From contig CAKOGP040001903.1 of NCBI GenBank assembly GCA_933822405.4, forward strand, positions 217,743 to 281,742: a stretch of DNA of 64,000 nt, given 5' to 3'. How positions within the stretch are numbered: position 1 is the first letter of the stretch; every line of letters starts with the position of its first letter. This document shows, one piece after another, positions 2,248 to 20,761 of this stretch. The stretch comes from Cylindrotheca closterium. Lineage: Eukaryota; Bacillariophyta; Bacillariophyceae; Bacillariales; Bacillariaceae. The notes under the pieces were generated by a model, which was given only the letters and a program-made list of their open reading frames with translations, did not search any database and had not been told where the DNA came from. Made by a program: the position numbers and the translations under genes.

Positions 2248-2257
2248 TCTCACAATT
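2248..2257 (+). promoter_or_regulatory. Family upstream box, member A (TCTCACAATT)
   Basis: Ten-base box ending 17 nt before the ATG of member A. The same box precedes all nine family copies on either strand. Its short distance and TCA core suggest an initiator with a very short 5' leader (inference). Confidence 0.55.
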
Positions 2258-2274: not shown

Positions 2275-2739
2275 ATGAAAACTTCAGTTCCGAGCCTACA
2301 ACAGCAAAAGGTGCCCAGTCTCGTCTTTGGAGCCCACTCGTCTTCCAACAGTCTCGTATCAATCCTGTCGTTTGAATCGCGAAAGGATGTCGCTCCACGG
2401 GTTCCCAAGCGCAAGTCATCCAGTGACTTGTTCGTTGGATACAGGAGCACCAGTGACCAACAGTGTGAGAATTCTTCTTCCAATGCCAGATTCGAAGATG
2501 GCTGCAACAGCGAGAGCCTTGTTGGATCTACTACAACGATGGCATCGCTGATCGATGGATTGGGTTGCCTTTCTCCTGTTGCCAAAAAGAAGAGCTCGAT
2601 GAAATCAATTACATCCTATCGCCTAATGGATGACCTAACCACAAAATCGGATACACCGCCAGCTATCCCACAACGAGAGCTCTCTACCGAAAACAGATGG
2701 GCCATTCGGGAGTTCTATTTCGAATGCGCAACAGAGTGA
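2275..2739 (+). CDS. Small PxxPxR-family protein, member A
   Basis: A 154-residue protein of a family I do not recognise, repeated nine times between 2.2 and 20.8 kb. Order of features: N-terminal block VPSLVF (about residues 13-18), a serine-rich stretch with SNSLVS, motif 1 DVAPRVPKRK (about 36-45), a central block with NARFEDGCNSESL and MASLIDGLGCLSP, then motif 2 KSDTPPAIPQRE near residue 130. Both motifs have the spacing PxxPxR, which is the class II SH3-ligand pattern; binding is inference only. No signal peptide or membrane segment is visible, so it is probably cytosolic or nuclear. The ATG was chosen because it directly follows the family box at 2248-2257; an earlier in-frame ATG at 2230 lies before that box. 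Conservation of frame and motifs among copies supports coding. Confidence 0.7.
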   Translation: MKTSVPSLQQQKVPSLVFGAHSSSNSLVSILSFESRKDVAPRVPKRKSSSDLFVGYRSTSDQQCENSSSNARFEDGCNSESLVGSTTTMASLIDGLGCLSPVAKKKSSMKSITSYRLMDDLTTKSDTPPAIPQRELSTENRWAIREFYFECATE

Positions 2740-3940
2740 AGAAGTGACAGCACCCCATGAACTTTGACGGAAACATCCGCGACAAGCACTCCAAGTCACA
2801 AGACCACCTGGGAATCGGCCATATCCAAAAAGCTATCAGTCACATAGTCGTGCGATGACAAATGGCAGAGACACAAAAGACAGCTAACATAGAAAATAAA
2901 AGTACAATAGCTACAGTAGAACATCAAGCAAGGGCTCAATGCTCATTCAAAGCATACTTAATATTGGATCATTTGCCATCAACTCAATTGAAGCTATAAC
3001 TGTTCCTTCAAAGGAGAGCTGAATAGCCTCGAGTCCAAGGTGATGAACAAAACTGCTCGCAACCGGTAGCCTCACATATTTTACGACAAGAAAGAAGCAA
3101 ATGCTTACAGATCTCACCGGACTAAATCCTACTAGAAGCTACCAGTACATTCGTTTCATCCGTGGCACAATGGTGGATTCCTGCGCTGGCCCTTTCTCAT
3201 CCAGCGAGCGAACCCAAAACGAACGATATATATCGCATCTCGTGTCGTACCTGGTACCTCTGGTAGCGTTCCATCCCACATGTTCCTAGTCCTATTTGAT
3301 TGCAATCTGCCTCGACGTTTTTGACCTGTGGTTGATTGGGGCGGTTTGCGATTGATTGATTCATTGGCCTATATGGGTCATGTGCATCATTCACATCGCG
3401 TCCTTCTTCAGTACTGCCCGAAGCTGTCATGAGTAGTCTTATATATCCTTCTGTAGTACTAGCCGTAGCAGGTACCTGTTAACACATGCATTTGATCACG
3501 CTATGATGACATCGATGGTTTTCACATCAACTTGAAGTGCAATCATGATGAAGATGCTTTTTATTTCGATCGAACCAGGAACGTGTATATGTGCGTGCGT
3601 GGCCTGGAAGCTTCGAGTTGAAGCTGGTACACGTATATAAGTCCCTGCATGTTGTCAAACGCGACCGTAAGAAAAAATGATAACTACAGTAAGTCTCGGA
3701 GGAAGTTTGTCGCCGTTGGCATATTGTATATATATCAATCAGTTGCGAAGTTTTGATGGCAAACCGCCCCTTCAGTGCACTGATGGAACCAGGGATTAAT
3801 GTTCCAATACAATAAGTAATCGCGATATCTTTCTATCGCATCCCCGTTCGTTTGAGAAAGACTTCAGTATAATACGTGGAGCGTTCCCCACGTCGGCACC
3901 ATGGTTCTTGATTTCCCCGCACGCCATCACATCATGTTAG
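2740..3940. other. Spacer between members A and B
   Basis: About 1.2 kb with no gene I can support. The right half (about 3300-3900) is diverged duplicate of the flank before member A, including the ACGTGGAGCGTTCCCCACGTCG stretch near 3880 and its relative at 2170. ORFs here are short and share nothing with neighbours. Confidence 0.5.
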
Positions 3941-3950
3941 TCTCACAATT
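3941..3950 (+). promoter_or_regulatory. Family upstream box, member B (TCTCACAATT)
   Basis: Exact match to the box before member A; 12 nt separate it from the ATG of member B. Confidence 0.55.
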
Positions 3951-3962
3951 CTTGGACAAAAA

Positions 3963-4451
3963 ATGATGACAGCATCAGTTCCAAGCCTAAAGCAACAAGA
4001 GGTGCCAAGTCTCGTCTTACTTGGAGCTGCCGAATCGCCTTCCAACAGTCTCGTATCAACCCTGTCGTTCAAATCGCGAGAGGATATCGCTCCACGAGTT
4101 CCCAAGCGCAAGCCATCAAAAGATTTGGACAAAGTAAGTAGCAGCAAGCAGCAGGGTGATAATTTCGTTGCAAATACCAGATTCGACGATGGATGCATTA
4201 GCCAGGACCTTGGATCTAGCACTAGGATGGCATCGGTGGTAATGGATAGCTTGAGTTGCCTCTCTCATATTGCAAAGAAGGAGTGCAGGATGACATCAAC
4301 TAGTACATCCGTTCACCTGATGGATGACCTGACTACAAAATCGGATACATCACCGACAATCCCACGACGAGAGCCCTCTTCCGAAAGCAGTGGAGCTATT
4401 CGAGAGTGCAATGATGCATTTCGGATGTACAACAGAATCATGAAGAAGTGA
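3963..4451 (+). CDS. Small PxxPxR-family protein, member B
   Basis: A 162-residue family copy, closest to member A. It keeps the N-terminal VPSLKQQEVPSLV block, the SPSNSLVSTLSF stretch, motif 1 DIAPRVPKRK (near residue 40), the NTRFDDGCISQDL block, the LMDDLTTKSDTSPTIPRRE motif 2 region and a unique tail rich in N, R, M and K. Motif 2 reads SPTIPRR, so the first proline of the usual PP pair is replaced by serine but the PxxPxR core remains. The start has two adjacent ATG codons; the first is taken because it sits 12 nt behind the family box. Function unknown; no targeting signal or transmembrane helix is visible. Confidence 0.7.
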   Translation: MMTASVPSLKQQEVPSLVLLGAAESPSNSLVSTLSFKSREDIAPRVPKRKPSKDLDKVSSSKQQGDNFVANTRFDDGCISQDLGSSTRMASVVMDSLSCLSHIAKKECRMTSTSTSVHLMDDLTTKSDTSPTIPRREPSSESSGAIRECNDAFRMYNRIMKK

Positions 4452-5440
4452 TATCATGACGCAAATGGGACATACCAAATAAGCTGTTGCCATACTATAT
4501 ACTACTATGAGGCAACAGACAAGGGAGGTGACATAAAAAATAGAAAATAAAACAGACTTTGATCGAAAAGGCTGGAAAATTTGAAAGCACACTGTCAAAA
4601 CGCGGGACTATATAACCTCAATTGCGATTTACACGATAGTTTTATCCTTTCCCCGCGAAAATCTGGTCACTCCTGTCACTCTGTAGCGACCATGTTAGAA
4701 GACTTACTTAGTTTTTCATATTTGTTCTGGACCTACTACTGTACCGGAGATTGCGTCTGTCATGCGAAATAACACGACTACAACAAAATATAGAGTGTCT
4801 CATTCAAAGCATGTACTGCGAGGGGGTCTATCGAAGATTGGCGCCTACCGCCTGGTTTCTTCCGTGAGGGATTCTTTCTCGGTGTGACTTTGGTGGGTTG
4901 TGGTGTGAAGCTGGTCTTTTGGATTGCGCGCGAAGCGTGCTCTTCCAGAAGACCAGTCTTTGATACCCCCCGAAGCGGAATATCAGAGACTTGCTTGCCT
5001 ACTAGGCCATGCATTGATGCAAATTATTTAATAAATAATTTGCATCAATGCATGGCCTAATAGAGATGTGGAGGGAGGTATTTCTTGATGTATACTCGCA
5101 CACAAGTTCGATAAATTGATCGGACTTGGTGTTGCGGAGCAATGCTGTTGGCGAAGTTTCATGAAAGTTGAAAACGGTCGCTCGACCGTCGTCAGTATGA
5201 TGAAAGGAATGAATCCAATGATTCGTTCTCAAGCTTTCGTCTACCGGTACGTTAGACCATGCATATTGAATGAATGATTATTATAATCATCACCAATCTT
5301 AAAAGATCGGAAGAGAAAAAGGTCATTTCCACCAAGGATGTTTCCACCTTGGACGTCACACCTATTTCAGTTCTTCTCACATTTCTCATGCAAAGACGAA
5401 TGAAGAAATTTGAAATATCACGAGACTGAGCGGTGTGAAG
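4452..5440. other. Spacer between members B and C, with long palindrome
   Basis: About 1 kb. It holds the perfect inverted repeat at 5003-5059 and a TACCGGTA site at 5242. The segment 4800-5250 is GC-richer than its surroundings and looks unlike the flanks of the other copies, which would suit an insertion, but no transposase or target duplication is seen. The end (about 5300-5440) again resembles the family upstream region. Confidence 0.45.
5003..5059. repeat. Perfect 28-bp inverted repeat with 1-nt spacer
   Basis: The left arm 5003-5030 (TAGGCCATGCATTG...) and the right arm 5032-5059 (...CAATGCATGGCCTA) are exact reverse complements, separated by a single A at 5031. It can fold into a 28-bp hairpin as RNA or a cruciform as DNA. 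No coding ORF uses it. Confidence 0.9.
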
Positions 5441-5450
5441 TCGCACAATT
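5441..5450 (+). promoter_or_regulatory. Family upstream box, member C (TCGCACAATT)
   Basis: One mismatch to the box of members A and B, 18 nt before the ATG of member C. Confidence 0.5.
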
Positions 5451-5468
5451 TGAGAAACGAACGAAACA

Positions 5469-5987
5469 ATGGACAAGCCAGTTCCAACACAACTACAACA
5501 AACAGTACCCAGTACCATCATGGGAGTTAGCTATTCTTCCAACAGTCGAGTATCAATCTTCTCATTCCAATCAGCACGGAAGGATATCGCCCCACAAGTT
5601 CCCAAGCGCAAGTCATCAAGAAAGGACTTGCTGTTTGGACGATCACGCAGGCGTCATGCAGAGCGTGATGAATCCGCGGCAAATGCCAGATTCGACGATT
5701 GTTGTGGTGGTCAGAGCATTGTGTTTATAACCATGATGACATCCCTGACCGATGGATCCTCTTGTGACACCGAAAAGAATAGCATCCTCCTCCCCTTGCC
5801 TGATATATGGACGACTGGGCTCCTAAATCGGATTCGCCACCGAGAATCCCTAAACGAGAGCCATTGTTGTTTCTTACTGACCAAGAAGGAGACAAACGAC
5901 GAGATACTAATACCGCACTACATCGAACGTCACAGGAGCAAGTGTTCGGGCCGTTGGAAATTTCATAGCTATCGATTTGTACTATGA
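5469..5987 (+). CDS. PxxPxR-family member C with an internal out-of-frame segment
   Basis: An open frame of 172 residues. The N-terminal half is normal for the family: VPTQLQQTVPS, SSNSRVSIFSFQS, motif 1 DIAPQVPKRKSS and the NARFDDCCGGQSI block. Around 5780-5870 the conserved motif 2 (SDSPPRIPKRE) is present in the DNA but in another frame, so the open frame reads an unrelated sequence there. The frame then returns to the family at LLTKKETNDEI, comparable to SLTKETNENI in member D. This pattern fits a one-base deletion plus a compensating change, compared with member E (AGCACATCTTCC... versus AGCATCCTCC...). The protein would keep length but lose motif 2. It may be a decaying copy, a diverged functional one, or a sequencing error. 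Confidence 0.55.
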   Translation: MDKPVPTQLQQTVPSTIMGVSYSSNSRVSIFSFQSARKDIAPQVPKRKSSRKDLLFGRSRRRHAERDESAANARFDDCCGGQSIVFITMMTSLTDGSSCDTEKNSILLPLPDIWTTGLLNRIRHRESLNESHCCFLLTKKETNDEILIPHYIERHRSKCSGRWKFHSYRFVL

Positions 5988-7452
5988 GTAATGATTATGA
6001 ACTGAACATCACTGGATTGCGATTGGTCCGACTAGAGCATCAAAGAAAGCAATCCTAATTTTTTTAAAAGTAGACGTGACTACAAAATACAATGCACCTC
6101 CGACAGTCCCACACGATGAGAGCCCTTCCGGGAAACCTATTCTTCATCATTAATCAAGGAGAGTATCAGAGTTGGACATGAGCTTTCTTGACAAAACCAG
6201 CTACCATTCAATCAAAAAGTCACAAAAGCAAAAGTATCTGCAATACTACGACGACCGCGTGTTGGTGCTTGTTTGACGGGCTGATGGTGCGGACATCACA
6301 AAGATGTCATGGTGGAGTGCTGGGCATTTGATGCGCAGCACTGATTTATCACACGAATGACGGAGATAGAATACTTGGTGCGGCCGTGGCACCAAACTGC
6401 TGGTAATATGTACTGTGCCAAAAGTGAGAGATGTCGTAATCGGTACGAACGTTAGAAGATTATGATGGCATTGCTGAATCTTTATATGCGTGCTTGAATC
6501 ATCAATACAATACCTCGCATTCAACTATCGAGATTCCAAGATTCCAAATGGCTATTTCACTGTTGACAAGTGGCACGTTCACGAGGGTAATTAAGCACAA
6601 GGGCTTGCCTGCATTCTATATTCAATCTTCCTTCAAAGCCTTGTAATGATTTGCAATTGTTGGGAATCATACCGCACGTGGTAGCAATGGTAACATCTAG
6701 CTAGGGTCAATTTTGGGATCATTTGAAAAGTCTCACAATCACCAGCATCGAATTGTTGCAGCATTCCCGAAATCAGATACTGTAGTGTATTAGGGACCAC
6801 GTTGTGCTTGGCCACTCAGCCAAACAAGATCAGGTGTGAACATCACCGCTTCGCCCTGTCAAAGGGTCTCGTGGTTGGAAGTGTTTAAAAGTGTTTCTAC
6901 GTGCGTTCCTTTCAATCTCACAATAAAAGCCACTCGTCTTGACGACGCTAAAAACACTTTCCTCATCTACATTCGACGGTGCGTACCACCAACATTAGCA
7001 ACATGATTTTTACCAGAGAGTCGAGCAGAAGAAAATGATTCTGTATTGGCATTTATCGTCTGTGAAATCGAAAACTTCGAACGCGATAGATTCTCCCAAT
7101 TCCCACAGGTGATGCTGACTATCAGACTGACGTCTAGCGCGATCAAATGCGAAAACAATAATTGTGCGGTTCAGGTTAGATCTTGGTTGGAGCATCCCGC
7201 CTTCCTATTGTTTCGACTTGTTTCCTAAATGTTGGTCACTTTCTAGGTTTCAGTGCTCAGACACTTTTCTTCGAACCGAACCACAGAAAGATGCTCCAAG
7301 AAGATACATATTGGACCCGTGCCAATATTCAATATCTCGAATTCCACCGGAGTGAATGAGCAGAAGAAAGTATTGATATCGTACTCGCGGCTTTTTGCGC
7401 TACAAGCCATCGGTGTTGGGAGCTCGGTTGGCCCGTGAGATCGAATCCATAG
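5988..7452. other. Spacer between members C and D, with family relic
   Basis: Contains the relic at 6074-6238. Otherwise no gene is supported. A CGAGCAGAAGAAAATG stretch near 7018 matches the element before members A, D and E, suggesting that parts of a further flank copy are present. TCTCACAATC near 6730 and CTCACAATAA near 6916 look like relics of the upstream box without an ORF behind them. Confidence 0.4.
6074..6238 (+). pseudogene. Relic of a member-D-like 3' end
   Basis: This stretch aligns with the 3' part of member D (about 7797-7980). It encodes a broken version of the motif 2 region (TTKYNAPPTVPHDE, in-frame stop and shifts) followed by SELDMSFLDKTSYHS, against AELDMNFLDKISYHS in member D. 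It follows directly on a sequence that matches the 3' flank of member E (TGGATTGCGATTGGT, then a T-rich run), so the left part of the copy was lost in a recombination or deletion that joined two units. No promoter box or start remains. Confidence 0.7.
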
Positions 7453-7462
7453 CCCCACAATT
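7453..7462 (+). promoter_or_regulatory. Family upstream box, member D (CCCCACAATT)
   Basis: Two mismatches at the left end against the box of members A, B and E; the CACAATT core and the following CCC are kept. It lies 21 nt before the ATG of member D. Confidence 0.45.
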
Positions 7463-7483
7463 CCCAAAAAAAACTATACGAAC

Positions 7484-8062
7484 ATGAAAGTTCCCAGTCT
7501 CATCTTTATTGAAGCCGCCGAGTCTTCCAACAGTCTCGTGTCAACCCTGTCATTACAACCGCGAAAGGATCTCGCCCCACGAGTTCCCAAGCGCAAGCCA
7601 TCGAGAGACTTGATCAAAGAAAGGAGCAGCAAGCAGCAGAGTGATAATTCCACGGCCAATGTCAGATTCGACGATGGTTGCAGTAGCCAGAGCCTTGCGC
7701 CGACTACCGTTACGATGTCGTCGCTGATCGATGGATTGGGTCGCCTCTCTCCTCTCGCAAGAAATCCAATGACACCGATACAAATATCCTCTCACTTGAC
7801 TACAAAATGCGATACACCGCCAACTATCCCACAACGAGATTCCTCCCGAGAAAGCTATTCGTCGTCATTAACCAAAGAGACAAACGAGAATATCTTGTCA
7901 CATATGAAACTAGCTGCAGAATTGGACATGAACTTTCTCGACAAGATCAGCTACCATTCAATCGAAAGTCGCAGAAGCAAAAGTACAAGGAGCAATAGGT
8001 CAATTCTTGCTTGCCCTACACAATTGATATGCCAAAGCCGCCATGACATGCGGCAACACTAA
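7484..8062 (+). CDS. Small PxxPxR-family protein, member D (longest)
   Basis: A 192-residue copy. It starts immediately with MKVPSLIF, so it lacks the 8-10 residues that precede this block in A and B. Then follow ESSNSLVSTLS, motif 1 DLAPRVPKRKPSRDL, NVRFDDGCSSQSL, SSLIDGLGRLSPL and motif 2 KCDTPPTIPQRD. It alone has a long tail with KETNENI, a hydrophobic helix-like stretch AAELDMNFLDKIS (resembling LALSMFNKIS in member I) and a basic serine/arginine end (SIESRRSKSTRSNRS). The tail also exists as a relic at 6074-6238, so it is ancestral to at least part of the family. Function unknown, no signal peptide. Confidence 0.7.
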   Translation: MKVPSLIFIEAAESSNSLVSTLSLQPRKDLAPRVPKRKPSRDLIKERSSKQQSDNSTANVRFDDGCSSQSLAPTTVTMSSLIDGLGRLSPLARNPMTPIQISSHLTTKCDTPPTIPQRDSSRESYSSSLTKETNENILSHMKLAAELDMNFLDKISYHSIESRRSKSTRSNRSILACPTQLICQSRHDMRQH

Positions 8063-10623
8063 GCGTGATCACGACTTCAACAGGGGAGGAGGGATGAATG
8101 ATGGAATACTCCAAAACACTTGAATTGCGCTGGTGCGATTAAGTGGCATAGAACGACCCAATTCCCATACAACGATGCAGTGGAGTATTGATAGAATTAA
8201 ACAGTATTTTAAAAATAGATCATTTTTACAAAGTAATGGGAATCGGATAAAATAGTAGAGCCGACGAGATTCCGATTGGTATTTTCACTGTTGAGATCTT
8301 TGGCATATCATTCGCACAGGTCCCGTGACCCTCGACGCAAGAAGGAACCGGAGCATACGGTATGCTCTAGTTCTCCACACCGGCCACTGTGCACGCTCCT
8401 TCTGCATAATACAAGACTAAAGTGTAATGCGTGTTTGGTCGCTGCCTGTTTCGGTGTTTCCCGCCGTTTTTGAAAACCGAAGTCAGTTTAAAAAAATCCG
8501 TAGCCCTGCTATTATACAAAAAATTACGATCGATCGAGTCGGAATTGGACTAAATCGACTACTCCTCCGACCGACATTCTGGAACAAAAGGCAAGAGCCC
8601 CATCTTGTACGATATGACCTTCTTTGTTTACATATCTTAAAATCTGAATATGTACTATTTGCCTACAGTGTATAGACTAGAGGTGTATCCATTTTAAATT
8701 CCAAATTTTGGTCTAGAATGCATGGAATTTCGAAACATTCAATCAAGTCACCAGAAATGTTGGGAAGGGGTCAACGGGAAACCAGAGCCAGGAATCTCAT
8801 TTCTGCAGCACACAAAGTCGAAATAGATAGGTATATTGAAAACTTTTGGTCTGGATACCGACACGGTGACTGGGATAGATTCTTGGCTACTTCTGGATTG
8901 CATGCCAAATTGACAACAAAGATCAAGTAGGTGCAATTCAATCACTTCTACCTTAAAATCTCAGATTCCAAGCCGCCAAACCTTGTTAGATATACCCATG
9001 GACGACGAATAAGTGTCAGACCAAGGAAGTTTGAGGAAATTAGGCCAAAAATTCGACAATTCAAGAATTTTCAACCAACTTACCTCTTTTCTGACCTCAT
9101 TTTGGCCTCATGATACTTAATGTAGGCCGAATCATTGTCTCGGTCCCGAAAAATCGAAGCCTGATGTATTGGTGAATGGATTGATAGCTGTCTCAATGGT
9201 GGCCACAGGGACATTCAGAGCGGCTGAGAAACCGCGACAACACCCAAGAAGGAAATCTAAAAATCTTCGCAAATCAAACAAATAAAGTAAATCAACAATG
9301 CTCCGCCGTTGTAATAGATATCAATAAAGCAAACGGATAGGTGGGGGCGCATTTGCAACTGTTGCAAAGTAGGCGGTGGTGCCATTTTTGGTTTGGCCGT
9401 AGAATCCTTGAGCATTCGCACTTTCACTGTCAATGTTTACCAATTTGGCAATTGATAGGGCAACTGCACGACCAGGTCTGCTTTCGTTGGCTCAAAGTCG
9501 AAGGAATTTCCACCAAAGTGAATGGTCAACTTCAACCAGTTCGTTTGTGACCTCCATCGCCGTTGGTATGTAGGATGCAAAAGTCGGACGTTGTTCAACA
9601 CAGCAGCGGTTTGCTTTGCTTTGCTTTGCTTTGCTTTGCTTTGCTTTGCTTTGCTTTGCTTTGCTTTGCTTTGCTTTAGATTGGACTGGCATTTGCTTCC
9701 GGTCGGAAAATTTTTCGGCAATATCCTGCCTTATTGTCTATGGAAGGGATTCGTTGACAAATTTCCCGATCGGAGAGGCTTCTTGGACGGTAACAAGCCT
9801 CCAGAAGGTTGACAGTGTAAACATTATGGTGTTGCTTTTTTAGCCATGAATTGTTGACAAAGCCTACCAGAGACAATATATTTCTACGGACTTTCTACAG
9901 CGTGTTTTCAAAAACTGACGCGAGCTGTATTTGTAGTCATGGATCGAGCCTACATAGATCTTCCTCCACTGTGTAGTCAATGTTAACGTGTCCATTCTAT
10001 CGCAACAAAGATTCAACTCCCTCCACAAAAATATTCATCTTTGTGTGATTCATGCAGCAGCCTGGTATCTTCTAGCGACGACCCAAGGAAAGATAGCATA
10101 CAGCGATACTCGCCGGCTTCTTATTCGTTTGATGTCGATGACGACTACAAGGACTGCGCGCGATGGCATCGATAGTGCTGATGCGCACTTGAAGTGTAGT
10201 CGTGATGCTGTTATTTCACCATGCTTCGCGTGCCTGTAGCTAGTGATCTGGTCATGATGTATAAAAGGAATGGGTTCTCTATGGCACTTTTCCCTAATCG
10301 TGATATTGTGATTTAGGTACTGTATGAAGAAAGAGGTAATTGTATGAACGCTTCGTAGTGAACTTCGTAGAATCCCACCATCTCATGTTCAGTCCGTCTG
10401 CAAAATTCAATAGCTCTTGGTGAACCCCTGCGGTATTGATAAAATATATTTCTTTAAGTGGAAATTTCCCGGTACACTGTTGAAACGCCCCTCCGAAATA
10501 CAAACAAACATCACTTAACCGATAATTTCATCCTTTCCCTGTGAAAATCCGAGCAGAAGAGAAAAACAGACTACGTAGAGGTCATTTTCACGTCTCGGTA
10601 CCACCAAAAGTGGAAATTTGAAA
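8063..10623. other. Large spacer between members D and E
   Basis: About 2.6 kb. The part to about 9300 is AT-rich and without a recognisable gene. A (TTTGC)13 array lies at 9610-9677. Just to its left, on the minus strand (about 9560-9310), one frame with a single stop reads like protein (ALSIAKLVNIDSESANAQG, FYGQTKNGTTAYFATV), possibly the remnant of an unrelated gene. From about 10000 the DNA resembles the upstream flanks of members A and B again. Confidence 0.4.
9610..9677. repeat. (TTTGC)13 microsatellite
   Basis: Thirteen uninterrupted TTTGC units from 9610 to 9674 and a partial unit. On the minus strand it translates as repeating S-K-A-K-Q, which creates spurious long ORFs. Confidence 0.97.
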
Positions 10624-10633
10624 TCTCACAATT
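10624..10633 (+). promoter_or_regulatory. Family upstream box, member E (TCTCACAATT)
   Basis: Exact match to the boxes of members A and B; 33 nt before the ATG, with a purine-rich AAGAAAGAAAGAAA leader between. Confidence 0.55.
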
Positions 10634-10666
10634 TTCAGGGAAACAAACAAGGAAAGAAAGAAAGAA

Positions 10667-11152
10667 ATGAACACGCCAGTTCCAGCTTTAATACAACAAA
10701 GAGTACCCAGCCTCACCATGGGATTCACCGGACCTTCCAACTGTCTCGTATCAACCTCACCACTCCAATCGCGAAAGGATGTCGCCCCACGAGTTCCCAA
10801 ACGCAAGTCATCCAGCGAGGACTTGTTGTCGTTGTCGTTGTCGGTTGGACGATCGCCACTCAGGAGCCATAAGCAGTGTTATAGATCCACGGCAAATGAT
10901 AAATTCGAAGGTTGCTGTGGTAACCAGAGCCTTGGGTCTCAAACTACGATGACATCGCTGACCGACCGATTGGGTTGCCTTTCTCCTATCACTACTAGTA
11001 CTAGCAGTAGCTCCTTGATGATGATGACACCGACAAGAAGAAGCACATCTTCCTTCCCTCACCTACCCATAGACGATTGGGATCCTAAATCGGATTCTCC
11101 ACCGACAATCCCTAAACGAAGACCATTGAATGAAGCTACTCTTTCATTCTGA
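10667..11152 (+). CDS. Small PxxPxR-family protein, member E
   Basis: A 161-residue copy and the last of the plus-strand block. It has MNTPVPALIQQRVPSL, PSNCLVSTSPLQS, motif 1 DVAPRVPKRKSSSEDL, a serine/leucine insert (LLSLSLSVGRS), the DKFEGCCGNQSL block, TMTSLTDRLGCLSPI, a serine-methionine low-complexity stretch and motif 2 DWDPKSDSPPTIPKRR near the C-terminus. Compared with member D it stops early (NEATLSF); the DNA behind the stop still resembles the longer tail of member C. The two PxxPxR motifs are intact. Its stop is 323 bp from the stop of the kinase gene on the other strand. Confidence 0.7.
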   Translation: MNTPVPALIQQRVPSLTMGFTGPSNCLVSTSPLQSRKDVAPRVPKRKSSSEDLLSLSLSVGRSPLRSHKQCYRSTANDKFEGCCGNQSLGSQTTMTSLTDRLGCLSPITTSTSSSSLMMMTPTRRSTSSFPHLPIDDWDPKSDSPPTIPKRRPLNEATLSF

Positions 11153-11475
11153 CTACAAAGGATGCAAAGAACGCCTAGGAGATAAAGTACAACCGAAAAA
11201 AAGCCTCAACAACCTGAGCTCGTATCACTAGAGCAGATGGTAATCCAAAGAAAAGCAAAAGCAGAAGAGTTCAGCCCGTTGGAAATTTCACAGCTATCAT
11301 TTTATACTTTGAGTAATGATGATAAGCTCAACATAACTGGATTGCGATTGGTGTGACTAAAAAGCATCAAAGAAACCGATCTTCAGTCAATTATTTATTT
11401 TTTAAAATAGGTGATTTTGATCACTTTAACATTATTTTTAAAGAAAAGATCAAAAGCATCCTGTAAGATGTTTGT
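11153..11475. other. Convergent spacer between member E and kinase
   Basis: The 3' flanks of two converging genes. It contains the TGGATTGCGATTGGT stretch shared with the 3' flank of member C and T-rich runs that could serve 3' end formation. No gene. Confidence 0.5.
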
Positions 11476-12988
11476 TTACCAAAGCCACCCCTTCTTTTCT
11501 GGTTCCGGACCAATGGGTTTGGCATGAGTAGGATTGGAATTGGAATTGGTATTTGTCGTTTCCGCGAGTTCGGTTTTTGGTGCTGCCTTGGTTGGTGTTG
11601 TCCTCTTTGGTTGCTTAACAGTTGGACACTTGTCCAGTTCTTCCACTATCTTGGCCATGGTAGGTCGTTCCAATAGGTGATCGGCCCCTTTTAGGCAGTC
11701 GCCCATGACATGACGTAGCTCTTTTGACCATTCTGTGGGAATGTACTTGTTTTCGGTACTCCAATCGCGAACCGTGGTACTAATGGGAACCTCTAGAGTC
11801 AAGAGTTGATATACCAAAATCCCGAAACTGTAGACATCTGCCGAGCAATTGTACTTTTGGTCTTTGAGTTTGATTTCGGGAGCCATGTACCGTGGGGATC
11901 CCACATTGTTGGTCATTTGAAAGAGGTCGTCGCCACCATCTGTAGGTGGTGGTGGAAGGACCCGAGCCAGATCAAAATCAAAGACTTTCAAGACCCCTTC
12001 TTGATTGAATCCAATGTTTGCTGCAATATATACGACAAGAGAATTTGAGTGAGTGAGATAGTGATGTTGTGCATGCATTCGTTCATTGAGTCATACGGAT
12101 ATAGTATAGCATAAGATTCATATTTTGACCGTTGTCACTTGACTTACCTGGCTTTAAATCCCGATGCAAGACTCGATGTTGATGCAAGTGTTCCAATGCC
12201 CTGGCCATTCCCAAGATGTACCGACACTTTTCAGCCAATATTTTCAGGTATTCTGGTTGAGTCGTTTCTTCGTAGACATAATACCACATGCTAGTGGATG
12301 CCAGCTGCCAAGATTCGAATTTCTTGTCCAACGTTTTGACGAGTAGTTCCAGCACTAGTGAACAATTGTCGGGATTCCCTTGCAAGTAATCCGATATCAT
12401 GTTGGGACCAGACCACGCGTAAATGTCAATTATATTTGGCTGAGCTGTTCCAATCAAGTGTAATATTTGTCCTTCCTGGATCAAATCGGCAGCACATGCG
12501 GCAAAGAGGAGTGGATTCTCCTTGACTTTGGGACTCAATTGTTTCAGAATTTGCTTCTTGTGGTTTTGGTGGTTGTTATTGGTACCGTTGGTAGGACTTC
12601 CGTGGCTACTGTTGGTAGGACTACTAGCATTGTTTTTGTGGCTGTTGTGTTTCATCTTTATTCTGTTCCTTTGTTTGTTGATAAAACTGATACCTTTCCC
12701 TTCTTTGATTTCGTAGGCAGACGAATAACTCCCATGTCCCAATAGTTTGCCCAACTTTAGTTCCGACAGAGCTACTTGCGGCAACTCAAGCTGACCATCT
12801 GCTATTGGAATGGATGTCGTAGTCTTGCTTCGACTCTCTGCAACTTGTTTGGCTCGAGCGGCAATGGCAGGAGGCACTGGACCTCCCTTTTTATACACAT
12901 ACGGAGTTCCTTTATTGTTGGGACTTATTGTCGACGTTGTGTACGACGGCGATGATGGTTTCACCTGCTTATTGACAGGGCTCTTCAT
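11476..12988 (-). CDS. Protein kinase with DFD in place of DFG
   Basis: Eukaryotic protein-kinase fold, 461 residues, two exons: 12988-12148 and 12020-11476, intron 12147-12021 (127 nt, GT-AG). Splicing creates HRDLKPANIGF (275-285), the catalytic loop. The glycine loop GHGSYSSAY is at about 84-92. An Asn/Lys/Ser-rich insert (110-145) separates it from the likely ATP-binding lysine K149 in ILKQL. The C-helix glutamate is probably E172, and the APE motif 327-329 (GSPRYMAPE) and DVYSFG follow. The metal-binding motif reads VFDFDLA (295-297), so the usual glycine of DFG is aspartate. All other catalytic residues are present, so it may be active with altered loop flexibility. It resembles the tyrosine-kinase-like Ser/Thr kinases common in heterokonts. 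The C-terminus is Thr/Asn/Pro-rich. It is divergent from the BspA-like gene. Confidence 0.88.
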
Positions 12989-13539
12989 CTTTCACAGCAG
13001 TATGTGTGGTGCTGTGTATTGTCTTATTGTCTTTTATTATTGTACCTATTCTGTGGATGGGGACAGTTTCTATGATGCACAGTTACTATACAGTATGAAG
13101 AAACGCTACTCCACCTGTCATTTGCCTTATTTGCCTATACAGGTATATACCGGTACTGTTGGCTGGCAAAGAAATCGAAGCAGAATAATTTGAATCAGTC
13201 CCGCTACAAATATTGATTCATTCCCGATTTGCGCTCCAGTGAAAACGCACATAATCTGCGCATGCCGTGCGACAGAAAAAGACTTCTTCCTTCCCCCAAA
13301 CCGCCAACCCGCTCGATCCAACAATGCCAGGCGCAGATTAGATTGCCAAACACGAAACGGTTATCTGTTGTGTTATTGTTGTTGTGCATTCCGAACCAGA
13401 TACTCATCACCATCAGCTCATCCACTGGTTGCTACAGTATTGATTGTGCATCATCTTCTGGCTGACTTTATTGTATCATCACTGAAGCAGCATATAAACT
13501 CTGACGTAACGCAAGCAAGGAAGCAGGCAAGCTACAAAG
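12989..13539. promoter_or_regulatory. Shared divergent promoter region of kinase and BspA-like gene
   Basis: A 551-bp region between two opposite start codons; it must contain both promoters. A TACCGGTA palindrome lies at 13148-13155. No TATA box is assigned with confidence. Confidence 0.45.
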
Positions 13540-15162
13540 ATGACCAAATCCACGGTATTTCTTTCAGTATTGTTGACAGTATTGTCATTTTGTTGTCAGA
13601 GTACGTCAGCCCAAAGGTGCTTTACATCGAACAATGAGCTCCTCGCAGCCACTCGAGTCCATTTTCAAGTCATGGGAGGGACTCAGGTCGATGAAGTTGC
13701 CTTTGATCAAATGACGCAAGAATATGGAACGATTGAAACTTGGTGCACTTCTCAATTGACCAATTTCTCGTCCGTCTTTTCCGTGGCAGCTCATCCCGCC
13801 GAGCTTACACCCGCCATCAAGGCATTCAGTCAAAATTTGGGTGGATGGGATACTTCAGCAGCCACCGACATGTCATTTATGTTTTTTGGTGCCGAAGCCT
13901 TCAATACCAACATTGTTTTGTGGCAAACGTCTCAAGTCACCAACTTTGAATCCATGTTTGCCGAAGCCAAGGCCTTTAATCAGCCCGTTGGGACTTGGAA
14001 CATGGAGGCCGCGCAAAATGTAAAGGAAATGTTTCGAGGGGCCGAGGCCTTTAATCAAAATTTGAATGGATGGAATACTCCCATGTTGTTGGAGTTGGCG
14101 GGCATCTTTAACGATGCCAAGGCATTCAATGGAGACATTTCGTCGTGGGATGTCAGTCAGGTCAAAGACTTTTCGACCGTCTTTCAAGGGGCTACCAATT
14201 TCAATTCCAACATTGCCAATTGGCAAACGAGCAATGCCCTCAATTTTGCACGATTGTTCATGCAAGCGTCGACCTTTAATCAAGATATTTCCAGTTGGCA
14301 GACTGGACAAGTCACCGACTTTTTGCATATTTTTGATGACGCCACTAGCTTCAATCAACCCATTGGCAATTGGGATACCGGATCGGTCACCAACATGGCC
14401 AATGCCTTTCGGGGTGCTTCGTCCTTCAATCAAGATGTCAGTGGCTGGGACATGTCACAAGTGAGCAAACATGACAAAATGTTCATGGACGCCATCTCCT
14501 TCAATCAAGATTTGTGTGCCTGGGCAGATGTCTTTCAATATTCCGAAGTGGGAAACTTGTTTACCAACACGGCCTGTGTTTTTACGGAGGATCCAGAGGC
14601 TGACGTGATGGGACCATTTTGCAAGGAAGGTTGTTCCAATATGGTTGGACCGGGGCCGGATTTTGCCGATCCTCCAATCACTTCTCCACCAGTCGGTGTT
14701 CCAGTCGATGGGGAACCCGGCATTGGTGGCGGCGTTGGCGGGGCTCCAACCAGATTTCCCACACCGCCACCCACTCCGGCAGGAGGATCAGCAGTTGGCG
14801 GTCCTTCGAGATTCCCAACCCTACCACCCAATTCCTTATTTGCTCCCACACCGCAATATGCTACCATCAAGAAGCGAGAACCCATGGACGATCAAACCAA
14901 GGCTTTGATCTTTGGGATTGGCGGGGCTGTTATTCTGGCAATTGTGGCTTTGAGTACGGCCTGTTGTGGGGAACCGGCGGGATCCAAACAGTATGAAATG
15001 GAAATGGGAGACATGGCTCCGGCGGATCCCAATGCCTTACCAGCAGATCAAGAGTATTATGGCGAGGAAGAAGATGGTGGTCATTCTGGAGATTATGGTG
15101 GTGATGATGATGGTGATGATGATTATTCACAAGAATCGGATGGGAGTCCAGAATTGGTATAA
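13540..15162 (+). CDS. BspA-like (DUF285) repeat membrane protein
   Basis: A 540-residue type I membrane protein, single exon. Residues 1-25 form a signal peptide (VFLSVLLTVLSFCC then STSAQ). From about 85 to 340 there are some ten 25-residue repeats with the pattern F-N-x4-W, then V-x3-F, then MF-x-A-x-x-F (for example FNQDISSW, FNQPIGNW, FNQDVSGW), the DUF285/BspA leucine-rich-like repeat first seen in bacterial surface proteins and abundant in diatoms. A cysteine pair and a Pro/Gly-rich stalk follow, then one membrane helix (ALIFGIGGAVILAIVALS, about 450-475) and a short acidic Asp/Gly/Glu tail inside the cell. A cell-surface adhesion or recognition role is the usual suggestion for such proteins, not proved here. 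The ATG is the first before the signal peptide. Confidence 0.88.
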   Translation: MTKSTVFLSVLLTVLSFCCQSTSAQRCFTSNNELLAATRVHFQVMGGTQVDEVAFDQMTQEYGTIETWCTSQLTNFSSVFSVAAHPAELTPAIKAFSQNLGGWDTSAATDMSFMFFGAEAFNTNIVLWQTSQVTNFESMFAEAKAFNQPVGTWNMEAAQNVKEMFRGAEAFNQNLNGWNTPMLLELAGIFNDAKAFNGDISSWDVSQVKDFSTVFQGATNFNSNIANWQTSNALNFARLFMQASTFNQDISSWQTGQVTDFLHIFDDATSFNQPIGNWDTGSVTNMANAFRGASSFNQDVSGWDMSQVSKHDKMFMDAISFNQDLCAWADVFQYSEVGNLFTNTACVFTEDPEADVMGPFCKEGCSNMVGPGPDFADPPITSPPVGVPVDGEPGIGGGVGGAPTRFPTPPPTPAGGSAVGGPSRFPTLPPNSLFAPTPQYATIKKREPMDDQTKALIFGIGGAVILAIVALSTACCGEPAGSKQYEMEMGDMAPADPNALPADQEYYGEEEDGGHSGDYGGDDDGDDDYSQESDGSPELV

Positions 15163-15708
15163 TGTGAATCAAATCCATTTACACAAAATCTAGTGGGCGC
15201 GACGATATATTGGGGAAATGACACGAGCATTATTTTATAAGAACAAGACTGCATCGTGTACTAATGCTACATGATGCTTTGTATCGTATTTGATACGTCT
15301 GTGTGTGTTTCTCTCATCATTTCGATATTGACAGCCTCTGTGTTTTTTAAACATTAAAATAATTCTATCAGCATTCAACAATATTTGGTAGCCTTTACAA
15401 TGTTTTAGTGCTATCACCATTGACCAATAATGGATGTTTTGGATGCCACGTCGCAACCGTCTCCTGTTTTGGGTACCCCAAGCACTCCTTGTGGGCCTAG
15501 TCGGCGTGTTTGAAGCATGATATGATTATGATGGCTTCTATTCAATGGTCACGGTATTTGTGCCGTCCAATGGAGTCGTCGAGCCTTTCTTTCCTGTACT
15601 GCAGCGGCTCCTGGAAAGTTTGATAAAGCAAGCAACCGAAGAGCTTTCACATTGCAAAATGTTTGGCTGCTGGAAGAGCATTCTTCTTCCTGTTATTGGG
15701 TTCGCTTT
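15163..15708. other. Convergent spacer between BspA-like gene and member F
   Basis: 546 bp holding the 3' flanks of both genes. No gene and no repeat of note. Confidence 0.5.
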
Positions 15709-15933
15709 CTAGTAATCATATCTTCGTTTTGGCATAGTTGGTGGTGAGTCACATCTTGGGTGCGACGATGTAGGGAAATCTGATGATCGTGTTGCCTTGT
15801 GTCTTGGCTTTCTTGGTGCAACATCCATTTGTGGTGACCCAGAGCAGGAGAGGAAGGAGTCCAGAGATGGCGGGAGACTACTGGAAGAGCACTGGTCTTG
15901 GTTGACAAACAAAATGAGAGTTGGAATTGTCAT
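15709..15933 (-). CDS. Small PxxPxR-family protein, member F
   Basis: A 74-residue member of the short minus-strand subfamily. It has the N-terminal block IPTLILF, a serine/leucine stretch (SLPPSLDSFLS), motif 1 in a weakened form (DVAPRKPRHK, where histidine replaces the arginine of PxxPxR), and ends with motif 2 CDSPPTMPKRRYDY. The central RFDDGC block of the plus-strand copies is missing, so the two motifs are only about 20 residues apart instead of 85-95. The ATG follows the box at 15982-15973. Frame and ending are the same in F, G and H, which supports coding. Function unknown. Confidence 0.65.
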   Translation of the reverse strand: MTIPTLILFVNQDQCSSSSLPPSLDSFLSCSGSPQMDVAPRKPRHKATRSSDFPTSSHPRCDSPPTMPKRRYDY

Positions 15934-15972
15934 GTTGTCTTTTTGTTAGCGTTGTCAACTTTGAAGTTTGAG

Positions 15973-15982
15973 AATTTGTGAG
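15973..15982 (-). promoter_or_regulatory. Family upstream box, member F (CTCACAAATT)
   Basis: Same box on the minus strand with one extra A, 39 nt before the ATG. A second shared element, TATCTATTTGCCCGACTAC on the minus strand, lies at 16029-16011, about 28 bp further upstream. Confidence 0.5.
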
Positions 15983-17643
15983 GAGAACTGAACCGTACAG
16001 TAACTTGTCTGTAGTCGGGCAAATAGATATGACCTTTTCGGAATGTGCGGTGTATTCTTTCGATTTGGACGGGGGCACTAGTAAAAAGAAATATAATGCG
16101 TGGCAGTACCTGCTGGTAACAGGTACCCTCCCTCCCGTGGTTATTGATTGATGAAATTTCGCTATGATATAATATATTTAGCTGTCTTCGTTCGACGACG
16201 CTATTGAAACTATCAATGCGTTCGTTATTACTTAACCCCAACCCTAAAGTCAAGTGCTTTTTGGTTGCGTATCCAAAATCGGGACTGTGGACAGGACAAA
16301 TTACCATGTCTAGTAGAATAGTTACTGTAGATGTGACCTTTCGTGCGGCGTATTCTTTCGATCGGGGATGATATTGCGTGGCGGCCGCCTGAAGTGTTTC
16401 GATTGATGGAATTTCACACGATTTTACTTCCAAAAGCAGTGAAACTCATCTATTTTTTGCTGGTCTCAGCTGCTTCAACACCGCCACCGTTGCCCGCTGG
16501 CAACCGTGACCAGCTCAAGCTCAAGACGATGCGAAAGGGCCAGCCAGTCCTATCCCAGCTTGTAGCAAGGATATTGGAATATTTTTCTATGATATTCTTG
16601 AATATTGCATAGGGGCTATTTTTTAAAATAATAATATATAATATGTTCTTCTGTATTGATGATTTACTGTGGTTGTTCTTTAAAACGTTTTTCCCCAGCT
16701 GTTCTTGTATCTGTATCGTAAAATTTGAACGTTGATGCATTGGCTCAAACGACAGGATCTAAGATAATCGGCGTAAATTTCTTGTCTAACTACCCGCACT
16801 CATTGAAAACACATGAAACCTGAAGGGATTTCGGCTGAAGTCTTTGCTGCACTGATTCGCGTGCGAAGCGTAAGATATCAGCTCCCCACTGTCCAACAGC
16901 AGCAAAGGTTCGAGTTGGTCGAAGGTAGTAAACTATCCCAGCTCGCAATCTATGATATTGAAATGTTAACTCATGAGATCGCTACTGTACGGGATGAGTG
17001 AGTCAGTCGTCAAAGTTGGTGTGTAGGCTGGTCCTCGTTACTATGATGCTATGATCATTCGTCAAAATATAAAGTGTTCGTTGCGTACTGTCGTTGACAT
17101 CATATATAAAAATCGTCGAGTAAAAGTTTGAGCACTAGTTGAAGTTTGGTCGCGTGGAAGGGGGGGGGGGGACTAAATACCATGTTAGCTCATGGGGAAC
17201 ACATGGAACCGCCTGATTGGAATACCTCTCGGCTGAAGTTTTCTCCCATACTGTATCAGTTTACAACAGGATCGTCTGCCGTCGTCGTCCTCGGCTCGAG
17301 CTGAAGTCGCGCAATCGAAAGAAAGCGTGTCACCGCTTGAATTTTGCGTGTCGAAACAGTTGTCGGTGTTGTTGAAACGCTGGAGACAGACAATCCCAGC
17401 CAGCCAGCTAGTAGCGTATTGAAATGTAGTAGTTGCAATGTTTGTTCTATGTATTTATGCTGTACAGTGATTCAAAGTGTTTCCATTTTTTGCCATTTTT
17501 AATAGCATCATATGCGTTGTTATCTTGCTGTGTCGCCTAAGTGATTCTTCCATCTTGTGCCTTATTAACTGGAATAAGCTGAAAAGCTCCGCATCACCGA
17601 TGTTTGCTGATAGGGAAGATTATTCTCCTGGGAGTTCTTTAGT
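15983..17643. other. Spacer between members F and G, with internal duplications
   Basis: About 1.66 kb without a supported gene. The segment near 16026-16160 (TAGATATGACC, TGCGGTGTATTCTTTCGAT) recurs in diverged form at 16326-16410. The segment at 16804-16870 (AACACATGAAACC, TTTCGGCTGAAGT) recurs near 17199-17245. These look like old local duplications of the family flank. A run of 12 G lies at 17160-17171. Confidence 0.45.
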
Positions 17644-17871
17644 CTAGTCATATCTTCGTTGTGGTAAAGTCGGCGGTGCATCGAATTTTGAGTGCGACAG
17701 TTTCGGGAAATATGATGATGGTGCTGACTTGCGCTTTGGCATTGTTGGTGCAACATCCGTCTGTGACCGAGAGGAGGAGTCCAGGGATGCTAGACTACTG
17801 AAAGAAGACTCATGGGTGTTGGCAAAGAAGACGAGAGCTGGAATCGTTTGTTTTGATTTATGGATTTCCAT
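17644..17871 (-). CDS. Small PxxPxR-family protein, member G
   Basis: A 75-residue short-subfamily copy. Features in order: TIPALVFF block, serine-rich SSFSSLASLDSSSRS, motif 1 DVAPTMPKRKS, a short SSYFP linker, and the C-terminal motif 2 KFDAPPTLPQRRYD at the very end. Both motifs fit PxxPxR. The open frame extends upstream to an ATG at 18024, but that extension runs through the conserved box at 17915-17906, so the ATG at 17871 behind the box is preferred. It is closest to member H. Function unknown. Confidence 0.68.
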   Translation of the reverse strand: MEIHKSKQTIPALVFFANTHESSFSSLASLDSSSRSQTDVAPTMPKRKSAPSSYFPKLSHSKFDAPPTLPQRRYD

Positions 17872-17905
17872 TGCGGCTATTCCCAGTGCTTTCTTCCTTT
17901 TTGAG

Positions 17906-17915
17906 AAATTGTGAG
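17906..17915 (-). promoter_or_regulatory. Family upstream box, member G (CTCACAATTT)
   Basis: 34 nt before the chosen ATG and followed by CTCAAA exactly as in member H. The second element (TATCTATATTTACCCGAGTA on the minus strand) lies at about 17964-17944. Confidence 0.55.
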
Positions 17916-19242
17916 CAGAGCTGAACTGCAACCAAATATCGTCTACTCGGGTAAATATAGATAGGCTCTTGGGATCATACGCTGTCCGATCGGAAATGGT
18001 GGCACGAATTAAATTGTGAGGCAAAGGCCCCCACCTTAGATAGATCTTTCTCTTTTACATATCGTTTTTCGTCTGATAAAGCGTCGTATCATTCGGTGTC
18101 ACGTATACCGGTACCCAGGTATTCGGTACATGTACAAAATGGGAAGCACTGCCAATCCGAAATAGAGTCGAGCTTTCTTTGGTGCGTCTACAAGCGGGTT
18201 CAACACATAATGTGCAACGCTATAATATCTATTAAGCTTATAAATATCCTGATGAATGTGCCTTTGGCTCTGAGCCTATCAAAACCATAGAGGAATAAGA
18301 GAACTCACAGACGACATCATGGAACGATGTAGGAGTTATTGCCTCTCTCGTCGAACTATGAACTCACTCGCGGGTGAGGACGACTCACTCGCCGACTTAC
18401 TTTTCCCCCAGAAGAAGTGCAATTCAGACACGAACATCATGATTCAAAGACTACCGGTATGATAGCCAGAGCGAAACAAATGTAGACAATAGACGCCGCA
18501 CAGAAAATAAATTATCGCAAATGGAATTGGAGCTGATGGAATTGCCTCTATCAGCGGCCGAAAACAATACCGTCCCGGTCATGAATAACACATTGAAGTA
18601 AGAATATAGAATACACTTGACTGAAGATGACATTGAATGCAAGCTCACGGGGAATGCCCCCCTTCTCCAACCATTGACTCGTATTCGCTCGTGAAAACAA
18701 GACCAGCAGTTCAGTACTTTCCACAGTCCCAGCTCGCGCCAGACGCAACTTGTTTCTAATATTGGAAGATCCTTTGACTCGTCACGCAGTAGTCGACTGA
18801 AGTAGTTGTGCAGGGGACAGATCGTCTGTTTGAAACATCACGGTGATCGCAGATTGAAGAAGTTACAGGCGTCAGATTTGGCTAGAATAGTCAGCTCATC
18901 GAATGTAAGGTATTTTTAGCTGTGTAGTAGTAACATTTGTTTTATGTATTTATGTTGTGATGTTGGTCGCTGTTGTCGCTAGAAAGTGTTACCTGTCTAC
19001 GGTCTAACCATGTCTTTCCACTTTGATCATGATCATGCAGTAGTGTTTGGAGGAGTACAGTGCAGTGCCTGCTGATTTGTCATCCTGTGAACCGACTGCA
19101 TCGTCGAGCTTCTGCATCATTGACTTTGGCCAAAGTGGTGGTTTGTGTTGCTCCTTAGCTCTTTGCGGAACTGCTGTTTGCTGAGAAAGAAGAGTAGTAG
19201 CCCTCTTCTGTGAATTGGTTTCGGTATTCGCAGCATTATTGT
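17916..19242. other. Spacer between members G and H
   Basis: About 1.3 kb. Two TACCGGTA sites (18106, 18452). No gene is supported; ORFs in this stretch are short and overlap each other in several frames. Confidence 0.45.
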
Positions 19243-19464
19243 CTAGTCATATCTTCGTTGGGGCATGGTTGGAGGTGCATCACATTTTGAGTGCGACGAT
19301 GTGGAAGAAAAGGATGATCGTCCTGACTTGCGCTTTGGCATTGTCGGTGCAACATCAATTTGTGAAGGCGAGGAGGAGTCCAGGGATGCGAGGCTGCGGG
19401 AAGACTCGTCGTTGACAAAGAAGATGAGAGTTGGAACCTTTTGTTGTGATCGTTGGATTGCCAT
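19243..19464 (-). CDS. Small PxxPxR-family protein, member H
   Basis: A 73-residue short-subfamily copy and the cleanest example. It reads MAIQRSQQKVPTLIFF, a serine-rich SRSLASLDSSSPS, motif 1 IDVAPTMPKRKS, the linker GRSSFSSTSSHS, and motif 2 KCDAPPTMPQRRYD at the C-terminus. The ATG at 19464 follows the box at 19506-19497; the open frame continues upstream to 19620 through the box, and that extension is not counted. The MAIQR start is shared with member I. No signal peptide, membrane helix or cysteine pattern suggests export. Function unknown. Confidence 0.7.
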   Translation of the reverse strand: MAIQRSQQKVPTLIFFVNDESSRSLASLDSSSPSQIDVAPTMPKRKSGRSSFSSTSSHSKCDAPPTMPQRRYD

Positions 19465-19496
19465 TTTGAATTTTCCTTTTTTATCTTGAGTTTGAG

Positions 19497-19506
19497 AAAT
19501 TGTGAG
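19497..19506 (-). promoter_or_regulatory. Family upstream box, member H (CTCACAATTT)
   Basis: 32 nt before the ATG. The second element (TATCTATTGACCCGACTAG on the minus strand) lies at 19548-19530, again about 25 bp upstream. Confidence 0.55.
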
Positions 19507-20350
19507 TAGAGAGGGAGATCCAACATCAACTAGTCGGGTCAATAGATACGTTACTGGGGCCATCGTACCGGGCTCCTCTTCCGATCGGACATGTTCACAT
19601 TGTGGTGGAACAGCCCCCATTGAGATTCTGAATTACACCGAATTTATCTTCTATGACGCTTTTTCGGTTGAAAAATGTCCTGTTCTATAATATTTTCTTT
19701 ACATAATGAAAAAGGGAAGCGCGGCGAATCCTAAATTTTGTCTATCGTTTTATTTGTCGAGTTGACTGCAAAAGAGTAGATAGACGTGTGTCTCAAAAGA
19801 AAGTCGGGATCGTTAGTTGCAAAATAGACAACGAACATGAGCAGATCGCGTTGTACTTGCACTTGCATGGAACGAACGCAAGCTTACAGTCCATGATGAA
19901 AGTACCTCTTCCACTGAGCTTTTTTCATATTCGCGACGCATCATTCTTCTTCTAATATTATATGCTACGACAGACCCTTTTACCTCTGGATCGCGCGAAG
20001 CCAAGTACTCGTAGCACTACAAGAGGTATTTTAGAAAAATCCGTTGAAACAGCGTCTATACTGTACCGGTACGGCGGGTACAACAGAAGCAAGGGGAGAA
20101 CCAGCAACATTGCAACTCTAAAGAGATGAAAGCGTCGTCAGGTAGAAAGGCAATACAAGCAGCTAGAATTTTGCAAATGGATTGAATGTATAGTAGCTTG
20201 TTGTTATTTACATATTTTGTCTGTCTAGTGTATATTATTTAGTATGCTGGGGGCAGCTGGTGGTAGATCATCTGTCGTTTTTGGAAGGCGTGTTTCCATA
20301 CTCCGGGCAAATCCCTGTGATCTATGTTTGTTTTGCCCGTTGGCTTTGAT
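19507..20350. other. Spacer between members H and I
   Basis: 844 bp. A TACCGGTA site lies at 20064. No gene supported. Confidence 0.45.
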
Positions 20351-20761
20351 TCATATTCTCTGCAGCATAGCACGATGGCTATTGGATCGCCATTGTTGCG
20401 ATCGGGCCATTGTCGTTGTTCTTCTGTAACCTCCTCCTTGTTTTTGCGATCCAGCGGTGCTGATTTTATTGAACATGCTGAGAGCAAGCTTTGCAGTTTG
20501 GCCATTTGGATGAATATACCCTGACAATGTAGAGCTTTCTTCTTGGAACTGCTTTCTTTGTGGAAGAGCTGGTGCAGAATCGCGTCGTCTTTGGGGCATG
20601 GTTGGTGGTGGGGCATCTCCAATGGATTGCTTGCGTCTTGGAACCGTTGGTGGAACATCCTGTGATCGAAAGGAGTCGTCGATGGATGCGGTATTGTCCG
20701 AAGGCTCGATGGCACAAAAAATGACACTTGGGACCTTTGGATGTTGTCTTTGGATTGCCAT
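20351..20761 (-). CDS. PxxPxR-family protein, member I (three motifs)
   Basis: A 136-residue copy. It starts MAIQRQHPKVPSVIF like member H, then has three PxxPxR motifs close together: DVPPTVPRRKQS, DAPPPTMPQRRRD and SAPALPQRKQF, between about residues 34 and 70. The third is absent from the other copies. The tail contains TAKLALSMFNKIS, which resembles LDMNFLDKIS in the member D tail, and an Arg/Gln-rich end (GGGYRRTTTMARSQQ). It links the short and long subfamilies. The ATG follows the box at 20800-20791. It is divergent from the lumen-protein gene. Function unknown. Confidence 0.66.
   Translation of the reverse strand: MAIQRQHPKVPSVIFCAIEPSDNTASIDDSFRSQDVPPTVPRRKQSIGDAPPPTMPQRRRDSAPALPQRKQFQEESSTLSGYIHPNGQTAKLALSMFNKISTAGSQKQGGGYRRTTTMARSQQWRSNSHRAMLQRI

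Follow-up and report, generated by a model that had tools for sequence, protein, structure and literature searches.

What kind of family is formed by nine small neighbouring genes in the diatom Cylindrotheca closterium, and what might the two short motifs that their proteins share be for? The genes lie in a 64,000-nucleotide (nt) stretch of contig CAKOGP040001903.1 (assembly GCA_933822405.4, positions 217,743 to 281,742), hereafter the window, to which coordinates refer unless another contig or locus is named. An earlier note, made from the letters alone, described a nine-copy cluster of an unrecognised family with paired PxxPxR motifs and proposed that these might be ligands of SH3 domains. 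We find that this is a real diatom family, larger than was first seen and with a better-defined motif plan, of which the window cluster is one branch. Judged from sequence, its two shared motifs resemble switchable sites for phosphorylation or docking more closely than simple peptide ligands of SH3 domains.

Nine homologous loci, A-E on the plus strand and F-I on the minus strand, were found at 2275-20761 as described, together with the relic of a tail:

2275-2739, plus strand: copy A, 154 amino acids, with VPSLVF, PRVPKRKSSSDL (motif 1), NARFED and PPAIPQRELS (motif 2)
3963-4451, plus strand: copy B, 162 amino acids, motif 1 and motif 2 present
5469-5987, plus strand: copy C, open reading frame (ORF) of 172 amino acids that includes motif 1, with motif 2 (5840) out of frame
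6074-6236, plus strand: relic of the family's 3' end (decayed tail), 68% identity to 7794-7985 in copy D
7484-8062, plus strand: copy D, 192 amino acids, motif 1 and motif 2, longer tail
10667-11152, plus strand: copy E, 161 amino acids, motif 2 without serine (PKRRPL)
15709-15933, minus strand: copy I, 74 amino acids, motif 1 degraded (PRKPRHK), C-terminal motif 2 PPTMPKRRYDY
17644-17871, minus strand: copy F, 75 amino acids, short form with two PxxPxR units
19243-19464, minus strand: copy G, 73 amino acids, short form with two PxxPxR units
20351-20761, minus strand: copy H, 136 amino acids, three PxxPxR units

The homology of these copies is beyond chance. By blastn, A and B gave the lowest E-value (8e-98) and F and G aligned at E 7e-54, and in whole-genome protein searches A retrieved B (E 6e-41) and G retrieved F (E 6e-23). 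Copy I is linked through G and F (blastn E 2e-29 and 3e-27); on its own it scored no better than shuffles with the profile of the close long forms. The close long forms and the minus-strand copies are joined by a profile alignment (hhalign) at E 1.6e-8, which is firmer than the link to the wider group considered below. Database entries P0001, P0006 and P0002 are identical to A, B and H, respectively, and P0003 ends with copy G after an earlier start; these searches were non-exhaustive, and C, D, E, F and I may also have entries. Motif 2 of copy C (5840) stands in another frame than its motif 1, which points to a broken or altered gene or to an assembly error; an intron was considered as the explanation, and no usable GT...AG was seen by eye in the sequence of copy C. 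The motifs lie 81-105 residues apart, start to start, in A, B, D and E, and 25 apart in F, G and I, where the middle of the protein is absent, with spacings of 15 and 11 in H, in rough agreement with the distances first reported (about 85-95 and 20).

The family also extends beyond the window. Whole-genome searches with A, G, P0005 and c4 returned the nine copies, four tandem copies on contig C517 (c1-c4, L029) and a decayed stretch on C26. The four C517 copies are collinear with A, B, D and E across the motifs, and P0005, a C. closterium database protein, is encoded on C517 with 100% identity over its whole length. Diverged neighbours on C517, barely alignable overall, carry the motifs as well, i.e., c5 (P0007), P0009 (L050:8687-9466), L051:846-1613, P0010, P0011 and the wider family member P0012 (C517:207321-207830, L059), and L050:7554-8120 holds units like motif 1 and motif 2 without NAxF. 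One further wider member, P0013 (C. closterium), which has an altered middle motif, is encoded on C134, and the C26 relic (L031:1851-1992), outside both arrays, has 68-79% identity to the middle of A, D and E and contains two stops. Weak matches on C371 (E 0.5) and C223 (E 0.17) were returned in genome searches with A, G, P0005, c4, c5 and P0013. In a tree of 14 close members the C517 copies group with support of 100/99, the minus-strand copies with 92/88 and the plus-strand copies weakly, with 50/61. The family grew by tandem duplication, in two arrays; of the two strand-specific subfamilies that had been proposed along with local duplication, the minus-strand one is thus a supported clade, whereas the plus-strand one is not firmly so. 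Common descent of this close group and the wider group is likely, though not proven, because the two occupy neighbouring positions and have the same motif order.

Profile searches of about 5.8 billion proteins, which depend on shared five-residue words such that remote relatives could escape them, returned relatives from C. closterium and three entries without an organism name (P0004, P0008 and P0014). So far, then, the family appears confined to Cylindrotheca and these entries; all named relatives are from C. closterium, which fits the expected restriction to related diatoms. No significant Pfam match was obtained for any of the nine copies, in line with the first impression that no known domain is present: a scan of ten proteins that included A, B, D and E (E <= 1) gave no family match beyond a chance-level one (E 0.16) in one of the ten, those of C, F, G and I (E <= 1) gave no match, and those of H and four wider proteins (E <= 0.01) gave no family match. 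A search of the PDB with sequence profile A3 gave no match at E <= 10, and a literature search found no title or abstract opening that names the family. The largest mean hydropathy over 19 residues was 1.37 among 23 family proteins and therefore, by this crude measure, there is no membrane helix, as had been stated. A transposon origin was also considered and set aside: the scanned proteins hold no mobile-element domain, and the clear matches are not dispersed but confined to the two arrays, C134 and the C26 relic.

Which features hold this family together? Within the window, motif 1 reads PxxPxR in eight of nine copies, I having PRKPRHK, and motif 2 is in frame in all but C, so that the paired motifs first described stand for most copies, the exceptions being the degraded motif 1 of I, the displaced motif 2 of C and the three units of H. 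The shared plan opens with a hydrophobic N-terminal motif, which is VPSLIF-like in the close group, and continues with P-x-R-x-x-S, N-A-x-F and a second P-x-R-x-x-S. All nine wider members carry PxRxxS (22 sites against a shuffled mean of 1.5), as do 11 of the 14 close members (19 sites, shuffled mean 2.0), and in the wider members that could be aligned (7/9) the P, R and S are invariant in both blocks. What the wider family has in common is P-x-R-x-x-S, as a rule in two copies separated by N-A-x-F. The full triad, PxRxxS - N[ATV]xF - PxRxxS, a pattern derived from these same proteins, occurs in 15 of the 23 family proteins, including A, B and D in the window, and in none of 11,500 shuffles; among 149 ORFs of at least 120 amino acids in the DNA examined it has 12 carriers, every one a family member. 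We also tried P-x-R-K-x-S-x-D-N-L as a genome-wide code and rejected it: the strict DNA pattern had one match in 47.6 Mb, inside the C517 array, which says little because the pattern missed at least one known instance with an AGC serine codon (L050).

The chain evolves fast, but in the window copies motif 1 and motif 2 have changed less than most of it, which upholds the constraint expected for them. Across A, B, D and E the proportion of nonsynonymous differences (pN) is 0.038 in motif 1 and 0.149 in motif 2, against 0.361 in the rest, and equal blocks were as conserved in 2 of 116 and 14 of 116 cases, respectively; in F, G and I, motif 1 has pN 0.115 and motif 2 pN 0.106, against 0.250 in the rest. 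In C517, too, the second block ranks among the better conserved (6/129 blocks are as conserved). The VPSLIF-like N-terminus, by which the copies had been recognised at first, shows no more than average conservation in the window copies (43/119, 33/60 and 32/54 blocks are as conserved). Calcineurin PxIxIT, clathrin-ear and cyclin-docking motifs were considered as further, hypothetical readings of this N-terminal motif and of NAxF. The ratio of nonsynonymous to synonymous substitution rates (dN/dS) is 0.35-0.70 within the window subfamilies, at synonymous divergence (dS) of 0.42-1.31, a set in which copy C is partly aligned out of frame. In C517, dN/dS is 0.18-0.31 for five of six pairs, where dS of 1.6-2.7 makes it unreliable, and one pair is saturated. 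Positive selection was looked for, with the earlier suggestion of conflict or dosage selection in view, and finds no support here: of 22 pairs within subfamilies, 21 were computable and not one of these has dN/dS above 1.

A short word is also retained upstream of the genes:

2251-2257, plus strand: CACAATT upstream of copy A, beginning 24 nt before its ATG

The same word starts 19 to 42 nt before the ATG in eight of the nine copies (A-H), with CACAAAT in copy I, and eight of the 20 occurrences in the window on both strands are those upstream of A-H. Between the 300-nt upstream regions, blastn (E <= 0.01) aligned only A-B, F-G, F-I and G-I. The position of CACAATT suggests a conserved core promoter.

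The reading that we prefer, with a probability of roughly 0.36, is that the proteins are disordered serine-rich adaptors whose paired P-x-R-x-x-S blocks, as predicted phosphosites of a basophilic kinase, would form a two-point docking switch. Such a kinase would phosphorylate the serine of both blocks, and this would switch a two-point contact with a candidate partner, e.g., 14-3-3 or a proline-binding protein. We favour serine phosphorylation for this role because it is P, R and S that the wider family retains. Most copies of the window branch have a PxxPxR reading of the two blocks as well. The standard serine is absent from both blocks of the short forms F, G and I, which retain PxxPxR in at least one motif and would thus bind without such switching. 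Relative to the serine, R stands at -3 and P at -5, frequently with an acidic residue at +2 and a hydrophobic residue at +3/+4, a context that we take to resemble sites of the CaMK/CDPK type. CDPK, CaMK and MARK3 are named as kinases of Phaeodactylum in PMC7408324, a paper whose main text has no occurrence of the word "motif". An AlphaFold model of c1, a C517 copy outside the window, is disordered (mean predicted local distance difference test score, pLDDT, 56; predicted template modelling score 0.13), and its two best ten-residue blocks (pLDDT 77 and 75) lie at motifs 1 and 2; it was made from a ten-sequence alignment and is therefore weak support. Two conserved basic-proline-serine blocks in a disordered chain would suit a two-point docking adaptor.

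Several results weigh against this reading. The standard serine is missing from motif 1 in three of 14 close members (F, G and I) and from motif 2 in five of 13 (E, F, G, H and I); in F and G the serine of motif 1 stands one position earlier, and in I a threonine is present and the arginine absent. Nor is conservation even across the plan: 37/132 blocks are as conserved as motif 1 of C517, 80/121 as the serine-bearing SSSDL in A, B, D and E, and 25/117 and 44/133 as the NAxF block, so none of these is specially conserved. The shuffles account for composition alone, not for common descent, and therefore do not demonstrate selection. The wider group is itself tied to the close one only marginally, with hhalign E 1.7e-4 and a probability of 49% over the span from the N-terminus to NAxF, and with three of nine wider members (P0008, c5 and L050:7554) exceeding the best of 1,800 shuffles in the close-group profile; in the wider-group profile, three of 14 close members (c1, c4 and P0004) exceeded the best of 2,800 shuffled sequences. 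Finally, a 14-3-3 pattern has fewer sites in the close group (29) than its shuffles have on average (38.5), so that it shows no enrichment there; in the wider group it has 39 sites against a shuffled mean of 24.9 (maximum 39).

Could the motifs instead be bivalent class II SH3 ligands, as first proposed, with paired PxxPxR units that bridge or occupy SH3 domains? The class II ligand pattern is PxxPx[KR], and its strict form is present in all 14 close members (22 sites, shuffled mean 0.1), among which F and G retain PxxPxR despite having no standard serine; motif 2 of F, G and H, with pN 0.045, is equalled by one of 51 blocks. Partners may exist as well, since a search of the genome for SH3 proteins found two clear loci above the SH3_2 cut-off (C1:1022843, L052, and C425:89578, L053), which are large ORFs with closely similar SH3 domains and the only clear ones found, and a marginal one on C168. 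A set of two or three SH3 loci is small, however, and the pattern fades outside the closer branch: two of nine wider members have the strict form and four the loose PxxPx[KR], and PxxP is absent from motif 2 in all five C517-type proteins because PLxxPxR stands there. PxxP thus appears to be mainly a trait of the closer branch, and an explanation by SH3 binding, weakened overall though it may hold for the window copies, seems to us doubtful but possible.

It is less likely, in our view, that the array is young, weakly constrained and heading to decay, with little function and a motif conservation that reflects shared descent. Copy C out of frame, the tail relic at 6074-6236 and the degraded C26 stretch would all fit such a history, as would a pN/pS of 0.76 outside the named blocks of A, B, D and E; yet at the dS values given above eight of nine frames are open through motif 2, dN/dS stays below 1, conservation of the two motifs exceeds that of most other blocks, and CACAATT is retained upstream of eight of nine copies. 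The proteins could also be nuclear regulators, in which PKRK-type basic stretches would be predicted import signals and the flanking serines would tune import. A stretch that resembles a nuclear localisation signal occurs in nine of 14 close members (9 sites against a shuffled mean of 2.0) but in one of nine wider members, under the shuffled mean of 2.4, and the conserved prolines and motif 2 would be left unexplained; we consider this reading quite unlikely. To a composite history we give the least credence: an ancestral phospho-switched P-x-R-x-x-S pair would have become a PxxPxR pair in the window, and F, G and I (73-75 amino acids) would compete, as motif-only microproteins, with the long forms on the other strand of the cluster.

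Two other genes stand between the two subfamilies, as first noted:

11476-12988: gene for a protein kinase (PF00069), divided between two ORFs
13540-15162: gene for a DUF285 (BspA-like) protein, E 1.7e-77

Some smaller features of the arrays were also recorded. An inverted repeat of 65 nt, 95% self-complementary, lies between copies B and C (4999-5063) and is perhaps the remnant of a small mobile element. The stretch on the 3' side of C (5940-6054) has 83% identity to that of E (11265-11381), which exceeds the 71% and 79% of their main coding parts and is hard to explain. Within the C517 array there are reverse-transcriptase-like ORFs, copia-type by eye, at L051:2695-3945, and a stretch of about 200 nt 3' of c2 (L029) is, again by eye, doubled in tandem.

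Diatom genomes hold many narrow tandem families without an assigned function, and this one is easier to read than most: its chains change fast and appear disordered, yet short motifs keep a fixed order in them, and across the two arrays a motif suits different kinds of docking site in different branches. The candidate partners found are few enough for one-by-one testing, namely the two clear SH3 loci and a single 14-3-3 gene, which was matched twice at adjacent places on C329. The family would let one ask how a new family of signalling adaptors arises and how short forms derive from long ones.

How does the family compare with known systems? Most window copies fit the class II SH3 pattern at both motifs, whereas the sister array and most wider members are without PxxP at motif 2, and no homologue with a known SH3 role was found. 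Doubly phosphorylated 14-3-3 clients resemble it in being matched by a predicted disordered protein with two RxxS sites in a genome that has a 14-3-3 gene; they differ in that the 14-3-3 pattern is not enriched in the close group and the serines are missing from the short copies. For the benthic diatom Seminavis robusta, species-specific and tandem gene families are described (PMC7335047); Cylindrotheca is mentioned 0 times in the main text of that paper and the passages considered do not name the window family, but the likeness lies in the tandem arrays, absence of an assigned function and narrow range. In comparison with microProteins, the window family has no folded interaction domain and competition would be putative, but F, G and I do resemble shortened relatives that keep mainly the contact motifs.

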